64,000 bases of DNA from Raoultibacter massiliensis (GTDB taxonomy: Bacteria; Actinomycetota; Coriobacteriia; Coriobacteriales; Eggerthellaceae). Shown in pieces: positions 36,634-44,688 of the stretch. The notes beneath the pieces were generated by a model. That model was given only the letters and a program-made list of their open reading frames with translations. It made no database searches and was not told the DNA's origin. How positions within the stretch are numbered: the stretch's first letter is position 1; every line of letters begins with the position of its first letter. A program made the translations under genes and the position numbers. Location of the stretch: assembly GCF_900199545.1 (NCBI RefSeq), contig NZ_LT962670.1, positions 417,009 through 481,008 of the forward strand, in the 5' to 3' direction.

Positions 36634-37248
36634 ATGGAGCAGCCCGAAACCGTTGAATCGTATTTGAGGACCCTCGAATTCAAGAAGAAGAGCTTCGGCG
36701 GATGCGACGAAGAAGATGCCCTCGCGAAGGTTCATGAGGTTGCGGCGCTCTACCAAGCCGAGCTTGATCGGCTCGACCGGCGTGCGAAAGCGGCCGAGCA
36801 GCGCGCCGCCGATTACGAGCGCCGCCAGACCGAGGTTCGGCAGCTCATGACGGCTGCTCAAAACATGAAAGATGCCATGCTCGAAAAGGCCGGGGAAGAT
36901 TCGCGGCTGGCTGTTTCCAAAGCAGAGAGCGAAGCGCAGAAGATGATTGATCGCGCCGCTTCGGATGCCGAGGACATTCTTGCCAAGGCAACGGCCGATG
37001 CCATCGTGATCGTATCCGAGGCGCGGGATCAGGCTGAGGGCATGCGCATTCGGGCCGAACAGGAGGCCGAGGCGTCGCGGCGAGAGCTGCAGGAGACGAC
37101 GGCGGCGTTGCTTGAGGCCCAGATGCAGGTGAAGGCTGATGTCAAGCGCCACACCGATACGGCGTACGCGAAGGCCAAGGTTGCAAACGACAACCTGGGA
37201 AAGATCGTCGAAGCGCTCGCCGAATTGCGCGACAGCATCTCGTCGTAG
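36634..37248 (+). CDS. DivIVA-domain coiled-coil protein
   Basis: 204 residues, almost wholly coiled coil from residue 35 on (KVHEVAALYQAELDRLDRRA and onward). The N-terminal patch TLEFKKKSFGGCDEEDALAK resembles the DivIVA/GpsB lipid-binding start, with FKK..FGG and acidic residues leading into the coil. Such proteins mark curved membrane at poles and septa and recruit division or wall enzymes. It is much smaller than actinobacterial Wag31, and the role is unproven. Confidence 0.75.
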   Translation: MEQPETVESYLRTLEFKKKSFGGCDEEDALAKVHEVAALYQAELDRLDRRAKAAEQRAADYERRQTEVRQLMTAAQNMKDAMLEKAGEDSRLAVSKAESEAQKMIDRAASDAEDILAKATADAIVIVSEARDQAEGMRIRAEQEAEASRRELQETTAALLEAQMQVKADVKRHTDTAYAKAKVANDNLGKIVEALAELRDSISS

Positions 37249-37268
37249 CGATGGGAGCCGTTGGCCGC

Positions 37269-37355
37269 GCGCGGCTTTTGCGGTGGTGCGCCGCGATTTT
37301 CGCGACATGCGGATAGGCGGTGCACGGTTGCGCGGCTTTTGCGGTGGTGCGCCGC
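37269..37355. repeat. Pair of 26-base direct repeats
   Basis: An identical 26-base unit beginning GCGCGGCTTTTGCGGTGG occurs at 37269-37294 and 37330-37355 (period 61). Each copy contains short self-complementary GCGC/GCGGC parts. Confidence 0.85.
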
Positions 37356-37518
37356 TCGGCCGCATAGGCGGGCTCGGAGTGGCCTGTTCGGTGCGATTGC
37401 GTCGGCGGGTGCGGCTGTTGGCCTGCGCTGCGCGGTTTGCGGTGTCGCTGCATGCGTCGCCCGCTCGAAGCGCCTCGCGGAGCAAGGGAAGCTCTTCCTT
37501 AGCTAAAACGCCGCTCTG

Positions 37519-37674
37519 AATGGCGGTCAAGGCAAGCTTCTGTCGAGAATACGCGCCGTTTCGGGCGTTTCGGGGAGCGCCTTCGCGATTCGGGTTTTCG
37601 CGACCTGCGCAAACGTCGGCAAGAGAGCGATCCGGACGCGGCGAGGCCGACAGAAGCTTGCCTTGACCGCCATT
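37519..37674. repeat. 156-bp element bounded by perfect 27-bp inverted repeats
   Basis: The arm at 37519-37545 (starting AATGGCGGTCAAGGC) is the exact reverse complement of 37648-37674. They enclose 102 bases with no start codon or ribosome site of note. The perfect arm identity suggests recent origin: a miniature transposable element, a structured RNA, or a very long terminator stem. Confidence 0.8.
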
Positions 37675-37720
37675 TTTGGGCCTGTTTTCGATAGGGATGA
37701 TCTTATCGAATTATGAAAGG

Positions 37721-37760
37721 GTGCGATGGCGGTCGTCGGCAGCAGCAGATGCCATCGCAC
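37721..37760 (-). terminator. Hairpin, likely terminator of the holin-family gene
   Basis: A perfect 10-bp stem GTGCGATGGC / GCCATCGCAC around a 20-base loop. On the minus strand it is followed by CCTTTC. Confidence 0.45.
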
Positions 37761-37790
37761 CTCCCCCTCGTTTCGCGCTGAGGGACGTGA

Positions 37791-37806
37791 TGTTTCACGT
37801 GAAACA
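37791..37806. other. parS: parS chromosome-partition site (ParB-binding centromere)
   Basis: TGTTTCACGTGAAACA is an exact match to the 16-bp bacterial parS consensus TGTTNCACGTGAAACA. The palindrome extends to 20 bp (GATGTTTCACGTGAAACATC, 37789-37808). It is intergenic, between convergent genes. ParB loads here and spreads, and SMC is recruited. parS sites cluster near the replication origin, so this window is probably origin-proximal. Confidence 0.93.
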
Positions 37807-37855
37807 TCTGTTCGTGTTTCGTATTGGAAACAGGCGACGAAGCGGCGAGTGCGTG

Positions 37856-38230
37856 CTAGTCTTTGTTGCTGCCGAGAATGGCGTTGACGATCCCCGAGAC
37901 GATGCTGATGACGATGCTCGCCACGAAAGCGCTTCCGAATGTTGCGATCTCGATGCCCGATTGGAAGATGCCGTTCGCGAGCCAGGCGGCGATGTAGATC
38001 ATGAGCGTGTTGACCACAAGGTAGAAGATGCCCAGCGTGAGCACCGATATGGGCAGGCTCAGGATTTGCATGAGCGGCTTGATGCTTATATTGATAAGCG
38101 AGAGGATCAGCCCGAATATGGCGATGGAGACCCATGCCTCGTTGCCGCCGACCGTATCGATGCCGGGAACGAGCCAGACGGCGACGCCGACGGCGATGGC
38201 GGTGACAAGCCAGCGAATGATGAACCTCAT
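37856..38230 (-). CDS. Phage-holin-4-superfamily membrane protein (YvlD-like)
   Basis: 124 residues, four membrane helices, typical YvlD/DUF360 pattern: MRFIIRWLVTAIAVGVAVWL, then GLILSLINISIKPLMQILSLP (the conserved NxxxKP segment) and TLGIFYLVVNTLMIYIAAWL. Despite the family name, these are chromosomal membrane proteins of unclear function and not evidence for a prophage. Confidence 0.9.
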   Translation of the reverse strand: MRFIIRWLVTAIAVGVAVWLVPGIDTVGGNEAWVSIAIFGLILSLINISIKPLMQILSLPISVLTLGIFYLVVNTLMIYIAAWLANGIFQSGIEIATFGSAFVASIVISIVSGIVNAILGSNKD

Positions 38231-38355
38231 GGAGTCCTCCTAACGATGAATGCCCAGGATTATGGCATGCAGCACTCGGCAGCGGTGCGTTTGGTTTTCT
38301 AGCCGTTACTTCGCGCGATGACGCGCGCCCGCTCGCCGAGCCGGTCCGTTTGTGC

Positions 38356-38369
38356 CACAATAGCCGCTA
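38356..38369 (+). promoter_or_regulatory. Leaderless promoter of the RlmD-type gene
   Basis: -10 box CACAAT at 38356-38361, then exactly 7 bases to the ATG at 38369. There is no ribosome site, so transcription probably starts on or beside the ATG. Confidence 0.45.
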
Positions 38370-39781
38370 TGAATACAAAGAAGACATCACGCAAGCAAAC
38401 CGGGTCGGGGGGCAAGAAGCGCTCCCGCGCATCGGTGCAGCAAAACGGCGGCCCTGCGCAATCTCGATCGAAAGGCGCCTCGGCCAGGTCCCGCGTTGCA
38501 GCTGGAGCGCGGCCGCAGGTGGCAAAGGAAGCACCGGCTTGTCCCGTTGAAGACCGCTGCGGCGCATGCCAGCTCCTGCACGTTCCCTACGAGCGGCAGC
38601 TGGCAAAGAAGCAGGAAGCCATGGCCGAGCTGTTCGACGGCCTTGCCGTCGAATCCACCGTGATGCATCCCATCGCCGGCATGGGAGAGCCGTATCATTA
38701 CCGCAACAAGGTCGTTTCCCCCTATGCGCCCGGCAGGCGAATCAAGCCGAAAGCGGCAAAGGCGGCGAAAGGCGACAAGCGCGCCTCGACGCGCGAAGAC
38801 AAGCACGCGCCGACCCATGAGATACTCTGCGGCATGTACGCGGCGGGCACGCACCGCATCGTCCCCACCGATGCCTGCCTGATCGAAAACCGCACCGCGA
38901 AGAAGATCATCCTTGCCGTGCGCGACCTCATGCCTTCTTTCCGCATCGAGCCGTATCGCGAAGATGCGAACACGGGATTTCTACGCCACGCGATCGTTCG
39001 GGTGGGCCACACGAGCGGCGAGGTACTCGTGACGCTCGTGACGAACGGAAGGCAGTTCCCGGGCTCCAAAGCGCTGGTGCGCGAACTGGTCAAGCGATGC
39101 CCCGAGATAACCTCGATCGTGCAGAACGTGAACACGCGGCAAACCAACGTGATCCTCGGCACCGACGAGATTCGCCTGTACGGCCCCGGGTTCATTCTCG
39201 ACAAGCTGTGCGGCTTGAGCTTCCGCATATCATCTCAATCCTTCTACCAGGTGAACGCATCGCAAACCGAGGTGCTGTATCGCCGCGCCATCGAGCTCGC
39301 CCGCCTGACGGGTGACGAAACGGTGATCGACGCGTACTGCGGAACGGGTACGATCGGCCTTGTCGCCGCTTGCGGCGCAGAGCAGGGGAAGGGTGCCAAG
39401 CGGGTGATCGGCGTCGACGAAACCGTTTCAGCCATCCGCGATGCGCGCGCCAACGCCCAGCACAACGGCATCGAGAATGCCGAGTTCGTGGCGTGCGATG
39501 CGGGGATTTTCATGCGGGATCTTGCTGCGGAGGCAACCGAGCGGATCGATGTCGTTCTTATGGATCCGCCGCGGTCGGGCGCGACCGAAGACTTCCTCAA
39601 GGCGCTCGTTGCACTGAGCCCCCAGCGCGTCGTTTACATCTCCTGCAATCCCGAAACGCAAGCTCGCGATGTCGCCTATCTCGTCGAACGCGGATATGCG
39701 GTCGAAGCTGTTCGGCCCGTCGACATGTTTCCCCATACCGAGCATGTAGAGAATATCGTGGTATGCTGCAATAATACGTAA
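38369..39781 (+). CDS. rlmD: 23S rRNA (uracil-C5)-methyltransferase, RlmD/RumA family
   Basis: 470 residues from ATG 38369, with a basic disordered lead of about 45 residues. The [4Fe-4S] ligands follow the RumA pattern: C-x5-C-x2-C in CPVEDRCGACQLLH, plus a later Cys in TDACLIENR. SAM motif VIDAYCGTGTIGLVAACG, then VLMDPPRSGATEDFL, and the catalytic Cys in VYISCNPETQARD. It methylates uridines of 23S rRNA; exact site specificity (RlmD-like or RlmCD-like) is not determined. It is probably transcribed leaderless. Confidence 0.92.
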   Translation: MNTKKTSRKQTGSGGKKRSRASVQQNGGPAQSRSKGASARSRVAAGARPQVAKEAPACPVEDRCGACQLLHVPYERQLAKKQEAMAELFDGLAVESTVMHPIAGMGEPYHYRNKVVSPYAPGRRIKPKAAKAAKGDKRASTREDKHAPTHEILCGMYAAGTHRIVPTDACLIENRTAKKIILAVRDLMPSFRIEPYREDANTGFLRHAIVRVGHTSGEVLVTLVTNGRQFPGSKALVRELVKRCPEITSIVQNVNTRQTNVILGTDEIRLYGPGFILDKLCGLSFRISSQSFYQVNASQTEVLYRRAIELARLTGDETVIDAYCGTGTIGLVAACGAEQGKGAKRVIGVDETVSAIRDARANAQHNGIENAEFVACDAGIFMRDLAAEATERIDVVLMDPPRSGATEDFLKALVALSPQRVVYISCNPETQARDVAYLVERGYAVEAVRPVDMFPHTEHVENIVVCCNNT

Positions 39782-43569: not shown

Positions 43570-44688
43570 ATGGGATACGCCGAGGATATTTTCGAGCAGG
43601 CGAAGCGAACGATCGCCGAACATGAGCTTGCATCGGGTGATACGCCGGTGCTGCTCATGGTTTCAGGCGGCTCCGATTCGACGGCGCTCGCCTACCTTGC
43701 CCGCGATTTGCGCGACGCAGGGGAGGTTGGGCCGATCGCCATGCTGCACGTGAATCATCAGCTGCGAGGCGATGATGCCGACAAGGACCAGGCGTTCGTC
43801 GAAAAGCTTGCCGAGCTGCTCGACATACCGTTGTTTTCCTGCGAGATCGATATCGCAGGCGAGGCGCGCAGAACCGGCGAGAACGTCGAGGCGGTGGCGC
43901 GCCACGAACGCTATCTTGCGGCGAACGAAGCGCTTGAAAGCCTGTGTCTGCACGGGGCAGCGCCCCTATCGGATGGACGCATATTCACGGCGCACACGCA
44001 GGATGATCGCGTGGAGAACTTCTACATGCGCTCGATCGTGGGCACGGGTCCGGGCGGCTTTCGCTCCATGCTGTACCGCAACGGCCCCATCGTTCGGCCG
44101 CTCATGGATGCAAGCCGTGCCGATCTGCGCGCCTACCTGGAAGAGCGGGCGGAATCGGGCCTTCCGACGCTGCGTGACGAATCGGGCGACCTGTGGCGCG
44201 AGGATGCGACGAACGCCCATACCGACCGGTTCCGTGCGTTCGTGCGACACGAGATCGTCGCGCGCGCCAAAAAGCGCAATCCTCAGCTTCTCGATACGCT
44301 TTGCAGGACCATGAACCTGATCGCCGATGAAGACGATATGCTCGATGAGCAGGCGGCGAAGATCGTCGAGCGCCAGGTGGCGTGGTTGGAAACCGACGAG
44401 GCCCTCGGCACCGACCATTCGGCGGGCTGTGTTCTTTCGCCCGAATTCGGCTGCGAGCCCGTGCCCTTGCAGCGGCGCGCTTGCATGGAAGTGCTTCAGC
44501 TCATGCTCGGCGCCGACGCCCGTGTGGAAACCGCGTCGGTCGAAAGCGTGCTCGCCGGCTTTGCCGAAGGCGCGCCCATCGGGGGTTACACGAACAACAT
44601 CCAGGGCGATCTTGCCGTGAGCGCCAACAAGCGCGGCGTACGCATCGAGCCGATGGCCGCCTATCGAGCCCGCCGCAAGAAAGCGTAA
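43570..44688 (+). CDS. tilS: tRNA(Ile)-lysidine synthetase
   Basis: 372 residues from ATG 43570 (GGAAGGG upstream). The PP-loop is MVSGGSDSTALAYLA; the family's HVNHQLRGDDAD and HTQDDRVENFYMR motifs follow. An N-type ATPase domain and a helical tRNA-binding domain fit the length, but the large C-terminal domains of E. coli TilS are absent or reduced, as in many Gram-positive lineages. It modifies the wobble cytidine of tRNA-Ile(CAU), an essential step. The order tilS-(maf)-hpt-ftsH is a common Gram-positive arrangement. Confidence 0.93.
   Translation: MGYAEDIFEQAKRTIAEHELASGDTPVLLMVSGGSDSTALAYLARDLRDAGEVGPIAMLHVNHQLRGDDADKDQAFVEKLAELLDIPLFSCEIDIAGEARRTGENVEAVARHERYLAANEALESLCLHGAAPLSDGRIFTAHTQDDRVENFYMRSIVGTGPGGFRSMLYRNGPIVRPLMDASRADLRAYLEERAESGLPTLRDESGDLWREDATNAHTDRFRAFVRHEIVARAKKRNPQLLDTLCRTMNLIADEDDMLDEQAAKIVERQVAWLETDEALGTDHSAGCVLSPEFGCEPVPLQRRACMEVLQLMLGADARVETASVESVLAGFAEGAPIGGYTNNIQGDLAVSANKRGVRIEPMAAYRARRKKA

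Follow-up and report, generated by a model that had tools for sequence, protein, structure and literature searches.

Does the perfect palindrome that lies between two convergent genes in the window (the whole stretch of 64,000 nucleotides that was analyzed) mark the origin region of its chromosome, as its likeness to a parS centromere might suggest? A first-pass annotation had reported an exact 16-bp parS core enclosed in a 20-bp palindrome, and on this point it was right: TGTTTCACGTGAAACA, which we take to be the chromosomal parS consensus, is present without a mismatch, and GATGTTTCACGTGAAACATC is an exact palindrome from end to end (Table 1). The window holds only one other match to parS at up to three mismatches, at positions 43742-43757, and this match has all three; shuffled versions of the window (n = 100) averaged 0.14 matches under this stringency. 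The site is located in the convergent gap between a gene for a DivIVA-domain protein and a gene of the Phage_holin_4_2 family. Beyond the holin gene are an RNA-methyltransferase-type gene and then genes for GGDEF/EAL, PALP, PP-loop, phosphoribosyltransferase, and FtsH-type domains. The window comes from a member of the Eggerthellaceae close to Raoultibacter; the closest relative that we found for it is Raoultibacter timonensis, with 80% identity in the methyltransferase. Because the core is perfect and because each of 19 relatives has one strong match to ParB, the window site very likely acts as a parS for a putative ParB. We note that an open reading frame on the plus strand (37676-38302), which is probably spurious, translates parS as MFHVKH; spurious frames of this kind may be annotated over parS in relatives among the Eggerthellaceae.

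Table 1. Features at and around the parS site, with positions in the window.
Feature	Positions	Strand	Description
DivIVA-domain protein gene	36634..37248	+	Left flank of the convergent gap; PF05103, 34.2 bits
26-bp exact direct repeat	37269-37294 / 37330-37355		61 bp apart, shortly after the DivIVA-domain gene ends
27-bp perfect inverted repeat	37519-37545 / 37648-37674		102-nt spacer; resembles a small mobile element (MITE)
11-bp hairpin arm pair GGTGCGATGGC...GCCATCGCACC	37720-37730 / 37751-37761		Strong hairpin just upstream of parS
Perfect palindrome GATGTTTCACGTGAAACATC	37789..37808	+	20 bp, encloses the parS core
parS core TGTTTCACGTGAAACA	37791..37806	+	16 bp, palindromic, 0 mismatches
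LexA/SOS-box-like sequence AAACATCTGTTCG	37802..37814	+	Right arm of parS (AAACA) plus extension
Extension TCTGTTCGTGTTT	37807..37819	+	Directly 3' of parS; common to dispersed parS of relatives
Phage_holin_4_2 family protein gene	37856..38230	-	Right flank of the convergent gap; PF04020, 94.2 bits

The annotation had also taken parS to be a rare sequence, and copies scattered throughout a genome to be contrary to its reading. Scattered copies are what the relatives contain. Exact copies number 122 in Rubneribacter badeniensis, 109 in Eggerthella sinensis, 78 in Gordonibacter pamelaeae, 63 in Gordonibacter sp. An230, 48 in Enteroscipio rubneri, and 21 in R. timonensis. With one mismatch allowed these numbers rise, in the same order, to 135, 113, 84, 82, 55, and 23, and one-mismatch copies are a minority (13/135 in Rubneribacter, 4/113 in E. 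sinensis, 19/82 in Gordonibacter sp. An230, and 2/23 in R. timonensis). Among 395 genomes of the order, 356 have zero to seven exact copies, 11 have eight to 15, and 28 have 20 to 148, with more than 100 copies in ten. The parS-rich set includes Eggerthella, Gordonibacter, Raoultibacter, Rubneribacter, Enteroscipio, and others. Other relatives are parS-poor, with two or three exact copies each in Adlercreutzia caecimuris, A. mucosicola, Berryella wangjianweii, and bacterium D16-34, and every copy at up to one mismatch in A. caecimuris and Berryella lies within 20 kb of dnaA. Outside the order, the maximum in an even sample of 396 Actinomycetota was 21 exact copies, in a genome of 8.6 Mb. The reversed parS pattern, used as a control, had no match in any of the count tables for the order (395 genomes) or the phylum sample (396 genomes). 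By its sequence, then, the window site evidently belongs to a large, scattered family of parS sites in part of the Eggerthellaceae. A tree of ParB from 19 genomes groups the parS-rich genomes in clusters with three changes of state, and its weak inner branches do not settle whether the state arose once. Up to 20-23 parS sites near the origin are reported for S. coelicolor and L. innocua (PMC7333895), and no higher figure was found cited in the open-access literature that was searched.

Where on the chromosome do these copies lie? The clearest picture comes from G. pamelaeae (G007), whose complete chromosome of 3,608,022 bp has dnaA at 1,288.5 kb and for which 76 of the 78 sites were examined. 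Seventeen of these are within 25 kb of dnaA and the rest thin out over both arms; 39 of the 76 fall within 250 kb of dnaA, a region that amounts to 13.9% of the chromosome (Kolmogorov-Smirnov p = 1.5e-11, and 1.7e-5 once the inner 25 kb are excluded). In the genomes that were studied closely, almost every copy is intergenic: by a six-frame coding score, only one of the 76 sites in G. pamelaeae was coding-like (score above 3) as compared with 1361 of 1704 control positions, and at a score above 0 the counts were 5/76 and 1441/1704. R. timonensis (G001) has 14 sites on the contig with dnaA and seven scattered over a contig of 2.85 Mb, and the sites listed for relative G267 (4,175,177 bp, 148 copies) are spread throughout 0-2.85 Mb. 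As to the window, the annotation had regarded its site as origin-proximal and hence as a landmark for placing the window on the map. Synteny indicates otherwise, putting it about 0.4 Mb from the dnaA-parB region: some 0.40 Mb from parB as judged from relative G298 (match to the holin gene at C1:1335.8 kb, parB at 936 kb) and some 0.43 Mb from dnaA as judged from R. timonensis (C3:563 kb versus 993 kb). On the evidence of the relatives and of synteny, confinement to a few copies near the origin, which is typical of chromosomal parS and not part of its definition, does not hold for this site.

Two local arrangements may be recorded here. A stretch of 7.6 kb in G267 (L278, C1:2156002-2163603) contains six exact copies; if that 4.18-Mb chromosome is circular, the stretch is some 80 kb away from the position opposite parB. 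Relative G272 has a dense domain of parS sites around parB (281 kb) at C1:20-540 kb that is nearly devoid of the LexA-like extension described below, an arrangement that differs from those of Raoultibacter and Eggerthella.

Is the scattered distribution the work of a dedicated binding protein? Noc-binding sites, which serve nucleoid occlusion in Firmicutes, are numerous along the chromosome, and in this respect the ParB-type sites of the relatives resemble them. Noc, however, recognizes a sequence (NBS) that differs from parS by two bases, and it has an amphipathic helix in place of the ParA-stimulating peptide (PMC7333895), whereas the sites in the Eggerthellaceae are true parS and none of the 19 ParB proteins has a Noc-like N-terminus. 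A single ParB match above 180 bits is present in each of the 19 genomes, whether rich or poor in parS; much weaker ParB-like matches, of up to 89 bits, occur in some. All 19 strong matches have a GLGRGL N-terminus and 18 share the same helix-turn-helix pattern (the regular expression missed that of G005). No Noc paralog was found among the 19 genomes, nor any second match that approached the main ParB in strength, and a Noc-type paralog is an unlikely explanation on these sequences. For SMC, 12 of the 14 genomes searched exceeded the family cut-off, and in G007 and G273 it appeared in pieces. The two pieces of smc in G. pamelaeae (G007:C1:593935-596594) may reflect a gap in the sequence or a break in the gene.

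Set beside known systems, the sites have a 16-bp core identical to that of parS in B. subtilis, Streptomyces, and Listeria, each of 19 relatives encodes a single strong ParB, and the density of sites in G. pamelaeae is highest near dnaA. Actinobacteria are described as possessing ParABS, with parS close to oriC (PMC4255298). The sites of the relatives differ in reaching up to 148 exact copies per genome and in that many dispersed copies have a LexA-like half-site on one side. ParB of Pseudomonas aeruginosa also occupies hundreds of positions away from the centromere (PMC7022226, PMC10419367); those are 7-bp half-parS sequences, in contrast to the full 16-bp palindrome that is kept in the Eggerthellaceae.

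The extension directly 3' of parS went unremarked in the annotation, yet it proved more informative than the rest of the site. The consensus of dispersed copies has TYYGTTCG on one side of parS, followed by T-rich DNA, and similarity fades 8-13 bp beyond the core. The frequencies at the eight positions were T 0.82, Y 0.93, Y 0.90, G 0.89, T 0.80, T 0.68, C 0.83, and G 0.75, figures that are somewhat optimistic in that the 97 sites, from three genomes, were oriented iteratively from the seed TCTGTTCG. With no fitting at all, GTTC was present at the fixed offset in 15/15 dispersed sites of R. timonensis, 33/60 of G. pamelaeae, and 9/22 of G267; the dispersed flanks of G. pamelaeae also carry GTAC (eight) and GTTT (six), that is, the variants GTACG and GTTTG. 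The site in G298 that is orthologous to the window site keeps the extension with one base changed (TTTGTTCGTGTTT). A strict search for parS followed by TYYGTTCG returned 29 of the 395 genomes, including 25 of the 28 that are parS-rich, and a single stretch of a viral collection. Strictly tagged copies are next to absent from four genomes (1/107 in G272, 1/126 in G273, 0/75 in G245, and 0/33 in G296), and parS expansion can therefore exist without the extension. Of 24 copies in a 400-kb sample of G272, 22 were on C1 at 20-540 kb. The direction of the tag showed no significant polarity with respect to replication (25 away and 14 toward, p = 0.11), on which ground we rejected a KOPS-like polarity, and the one-directional tags seen on contigs of R. 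timonensis were not matched by G298 or G007. Nor was the tag significantly oriented with respect to neighboring genes in four genomes (18:21, 7:6, 5:11, and 4:12; pooled p = 0.10), counts that rest on crude strand calls. The two gene callers disagreed about gap types, and from these analyses we rely on the intergenic location and the absence of bias.

What the extension resembles is an SOS box. Joined to the AAACA of parS, its consensus reads AAACATYYGTTCG, with the half-site GTTCG set at the 4-bp spacing of LexA from the AAAC of parS. All nine genomes that were searched had one lexA match over the cut-off, and the nine lexA promoters hold 24 boxes of the form RAACN4GTTCG: 14 copies of GAACCTTTGTTCG, three of GAACTTTTGTTCG, one of GAACCTATGTTCG, five of AAACATTTGTTCG, and one of AAACATCTGTTCG. 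The last two make up a third box, AAACATYTGTTCG, that is found in six of the nine promoters. Positions 37802-37814 of the window are identical to the third box of one of these promoters (L305 in G004) and are one base away from the AAACATTTGTTCG of the five others. This third box is present in parS-poor Berryella as well, and it was therefore not produced by parS expansion. Scored against the boxes of the relatives' lexA promoters, the window sequence reached 11.3, which is also the lowest value among the 24. The resemblance to actinobacterial and Gram-positive SOS boxes thus extends to AAAC-N4-GTTCG as a third box in six of nine lexA promoters, and it ends at the setting: the window box overlaps parS and, unlike a LexA box that belongs to a damage-response promoter, is located in a convergent gap with no adjoining promoter-like match. 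Within 37100-38400 there is a single such match (38065-38092), on the opposite strand and internal to the holin gene.

The LexA-like flank is a property of dispersed sites in particular. Flanks were scored against the 24 lexA boxes outside the shared AAAC, with a threshold of 8 for a LexA-like flank. Dispersed sites passed in 13/15 cases in R. timonensis, 10/19 in G298, 22/59 in G. pamelaeae, and 15/36 in G267 (a group that takes in six sites no more than 35 kb from the start of the record, one of them positive; 14/30 without them), as did the window site. The corresponding counts for sites in the origin region were 0/6, 2/8, 0/17, and 0/11, and the difference between sites far from and near the origin in G. 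pamelaeae had a Fisher p of 0.0018. LexA-like flanks were found at none of 62 parS sites of other parB loci and in 0.0005 (0.05%) of random flanks. We had at first counted against LexA the scarcity of CGAACN4GTTCG, of which a scan found only three sites in 2.44 Mb, but this pattern proved too strict as a LexA box, and the different left half of the boxes in the lexA promoters removed the objection. The loose pattern RAACN4GTTCG had 14 matches in 400 kb of G298 chosen blind to parS; 12 of them, some probably due to chance, were away from parS, and so was the one stretch with two boxes in that sample (AAACATCTGTTCG and AAACATTCGTTCG). G272 has GAACTTTTGTTCG upstream of a gene that we identified by eye from its translation as UvrA-like. 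An apparent CGTACATTTGTTTG box in the lexA promoter of A. caecimuris, also read by eye, partly excuses the GTAC and GTTT variants, and only partly. An AAAC half-site is weaker for LexA than GAAC, and LexA may for that reason bind the composite poorly. Taken together, the comparisons give good support to a composite element in which a putative LexA operator overlaps parS. No treatment of parS overlapping LexA boxes, or of parS in Eggerthellaceae, was found at the top of long search results in the open-access literature, which is not proof of its absence.

Are individual sites held in place? The 21 exact sites of R. timonensis were paired with 27 of the 30 sites of G298 by masking parS and judging the flank alignments by eye. 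Nine of the 15 dispersed sites of R. timonensis matched a G298 site in the corresponding gap, five of the six sites of its dnaA-parB cluster were paired as well, and six dispersed sites had no partner among the 27 compared. The window site pairs with G298:C1:1335693. In all ten dispersed pairs (nine from R. timonensis plus the window) parS is intact and GTTCG keeps both its side and its distance from the core, and most of the pairs have few other similarities in their 40-bp flanks; the exceptions are L265/L296 and L272/L285, which have more in common on one side, and L263/L299, which is tagged on both sides. This pattern suggests that the dispersed sites are selectively maintained. R. timonensis itself lacks the window site, and the matched parts of the genes there are 155 bp apart. 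Conservation of the position next to RlmD in all relatives was considered and rejected, as only three of the 39 best loci (L001-L039, some of them short) have an exact parS in the flanking DNA that was covered, although this gap is occupied in G298; in G004 and G005 a parS is found some 0.33-0.44 kb away from the counterpart of the window's holin gene.

Once bound to parS, ParB loads clamps and SMC, and it acts in concert with ParA (PMC7333895, PMC8357415). With this in mind, the reading that we favor, at a little less than an even chance, is that the dispersed copies are auxiliary ParB-loading sites that are contested by LexA and opened by DNA damage. Each dispersed parS would be a site for the loading of ParB. 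LexA would sit on the composite in the undamaged cell and hinder loading on the chromosome arms, leaving ParB, ParA, and SMC to work from the mostly untagged origin cluster. Induction of the SOS response would remove LexA and free the dispersed sites, at which ParB clamps and possibly SMC could then load along the chromosome, and the mostly untagged origin cluster would serve segregation at all times. LexA and ParB would be unlikely to bind simultaneously because the box shares five bases with parS. The composite we read from the sequence; its gating by LexA we infer. A bolder version, to which we assign appreciably less than even chances, has LexA closing dozens of secondary centromeres until the SOS response releases them, with ParB, SMC, and possibly the control of division then redeployed across the nucleoid.

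If a LexA box does overlap parS, the composite would be a direct link in cis between the SOS response and chromosome segregation, and DNA damage might then act as a switch for sites of chromosome handling. In any event, gut bacteria whose chromosomes carry 50-150 perfect and dispersed parS sites, cultured type strains among them, offer natural material for asking why the number of such sites varies and how SMC traffic is managed.

Of the alternatives, which we rank as a constitutive array, then an extended ParB site, and then a transcriptional role, the first is unlikely on our reckoning. It holds that ParB occupies every site at all times, for SMC loading over the whole chromosome or for Noc-like occlusion, and that the extension is a matter of fine tuning. 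The high number of exact copies with a gradient from the origin would follow naturally, as would the existence of parS-rich genomes nearly without strict tags and the retention of SMC above the cut-off in most genomes (12/14), and Noc with its binding sites is a precedent (PMC7333895, PMC6852036). Left unexplained is a LexA-type half-site at the exact spacing, kept in 10/10 dispersed pairs and rare in origin regions. Moreover, moving strong parS sites apart in B. subtilis leads to collisions of Smc, and scattered parS sites have been called seemingly counterproductive (PMC8357415), a problem that gating by LexA, if true, would ease. The Noc version has to contend in addition with the N-terminus common to all 19 ParB proteins, where Noc has its amphipathic helix.

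Quite unlikely, in our estimation, is that the extension enlarges the ParB recognition element of isolated parS sites and that its likeness to a LexA box is a coincidence. Among 126 matches to the box in 1.92 Mb of loci, many of which were chosen for parS, 99 are at an exact parS; by a division made by eye, the other 27 consist of six at near-parS sequences (five with one mismatch and one with an extra base) and 21 in lexA loci. The occurrence of the GTACG and GTTTG variants would also suit an enlarged ParB site. Against this, most parS sites of the origin clusters, to which ParB is presumably bound, are without the extension, and the match to the lexA boxes spans the spacing, the GTTCG, and the preference for a preceding pyrimidine. 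Furthermore, two tag-like boxes without parS are found in a sigma-70-like stretch of G298 (L347), a promoter recognized by eye.

The sites might instead be composite transcriptional operators at which LexA, ParB, or both repress adjoining genes, as their intergenic location, in a number of cases in divergent gaps, would allow. This seems to us very unlikely: the window site is in a convergent gap, as are sites in relatives, the sole promoter-like match nearby falls within the holin gene and on the opposite strand, and the tag has no significant orientation toward neighboring genes (pooled p = 0.10). It is highly improbable that a short repeat has spread neutrally or selfishly, whether through gene conversion or with a mobile element. 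Numerous near-identical copies, some of them inverted doubles exactly 34 bp apart, would be in keeping with it, but similarity fades 8-13 bp outside parS, the tagged pattern occurs in only one stretch of the viral collection (the two grounds on which a mobile element was rejected), many sites are kept in the same gaps between species with diverged flanks, and one-mismatch copies are a minority (from 4/113 to 19/82); no long shared flanks or source element were seen. Finally, that the palindrome is the intrinsic terminator of the convergent genes is barely credible, for although the loose rule of a pattern scan accepts it together with TGTTCGTGTT (one of three such sites in the window, with 1.3 expected), its stem of eight pairs has three GC pairs and is followed directly by TGTTCGTGTT and no continuous run of T, its core is kept letter for letter beyond what mere pairing would call for, and the parS sites of relatives occur in all types of gap without significant orientation bias.

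The gap in the window holds further repeats, as the annotation had said: a 27-bp inverted repeat, a 26-bp direct repeat, and a hairpin with 11-bp arms are all present (Table 1), and the 116-nt stretch at 37715-37830 folds better than 200 of 200 shuffles on both strands. Its hint that their presence beside parS exceeds chance fared less well. The gap is about 0.4 kb longer than its counterpart in G298, the extra part carries the repeats, and neither the 27-bp arm nor the 26-bp repeat had a match at up to four mismatches in the loci of other relatives that were compared. The repeats look unrelated to parS, since these two had no match in the other loci compared and parS and the extension are kept in G298.

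Some parS sites in relatives have surroundings of their own. A second palindrome, roughly TATCGCACTACATTGCGATA, lies beside parS in L274 (152-215, G005) and L275 (2790, G004), with a similar one in L089. Elsewhere parS is the center of a longer stem, such as AAAGCCCCGAA-parS-TTCGGGGCTTT (L276 at 9392, L117, L091, and G007:C1:1427691), and these look as if parS had been set inside intrinsic terminators. Lastly, parS directly follows or overlaps the stop codon of parB (TAATGTTTCACG or TGATGTTTCACG) in L123, L128, L129, and L131, all from parS-rich genomes, and, as judged by eye, in L132.
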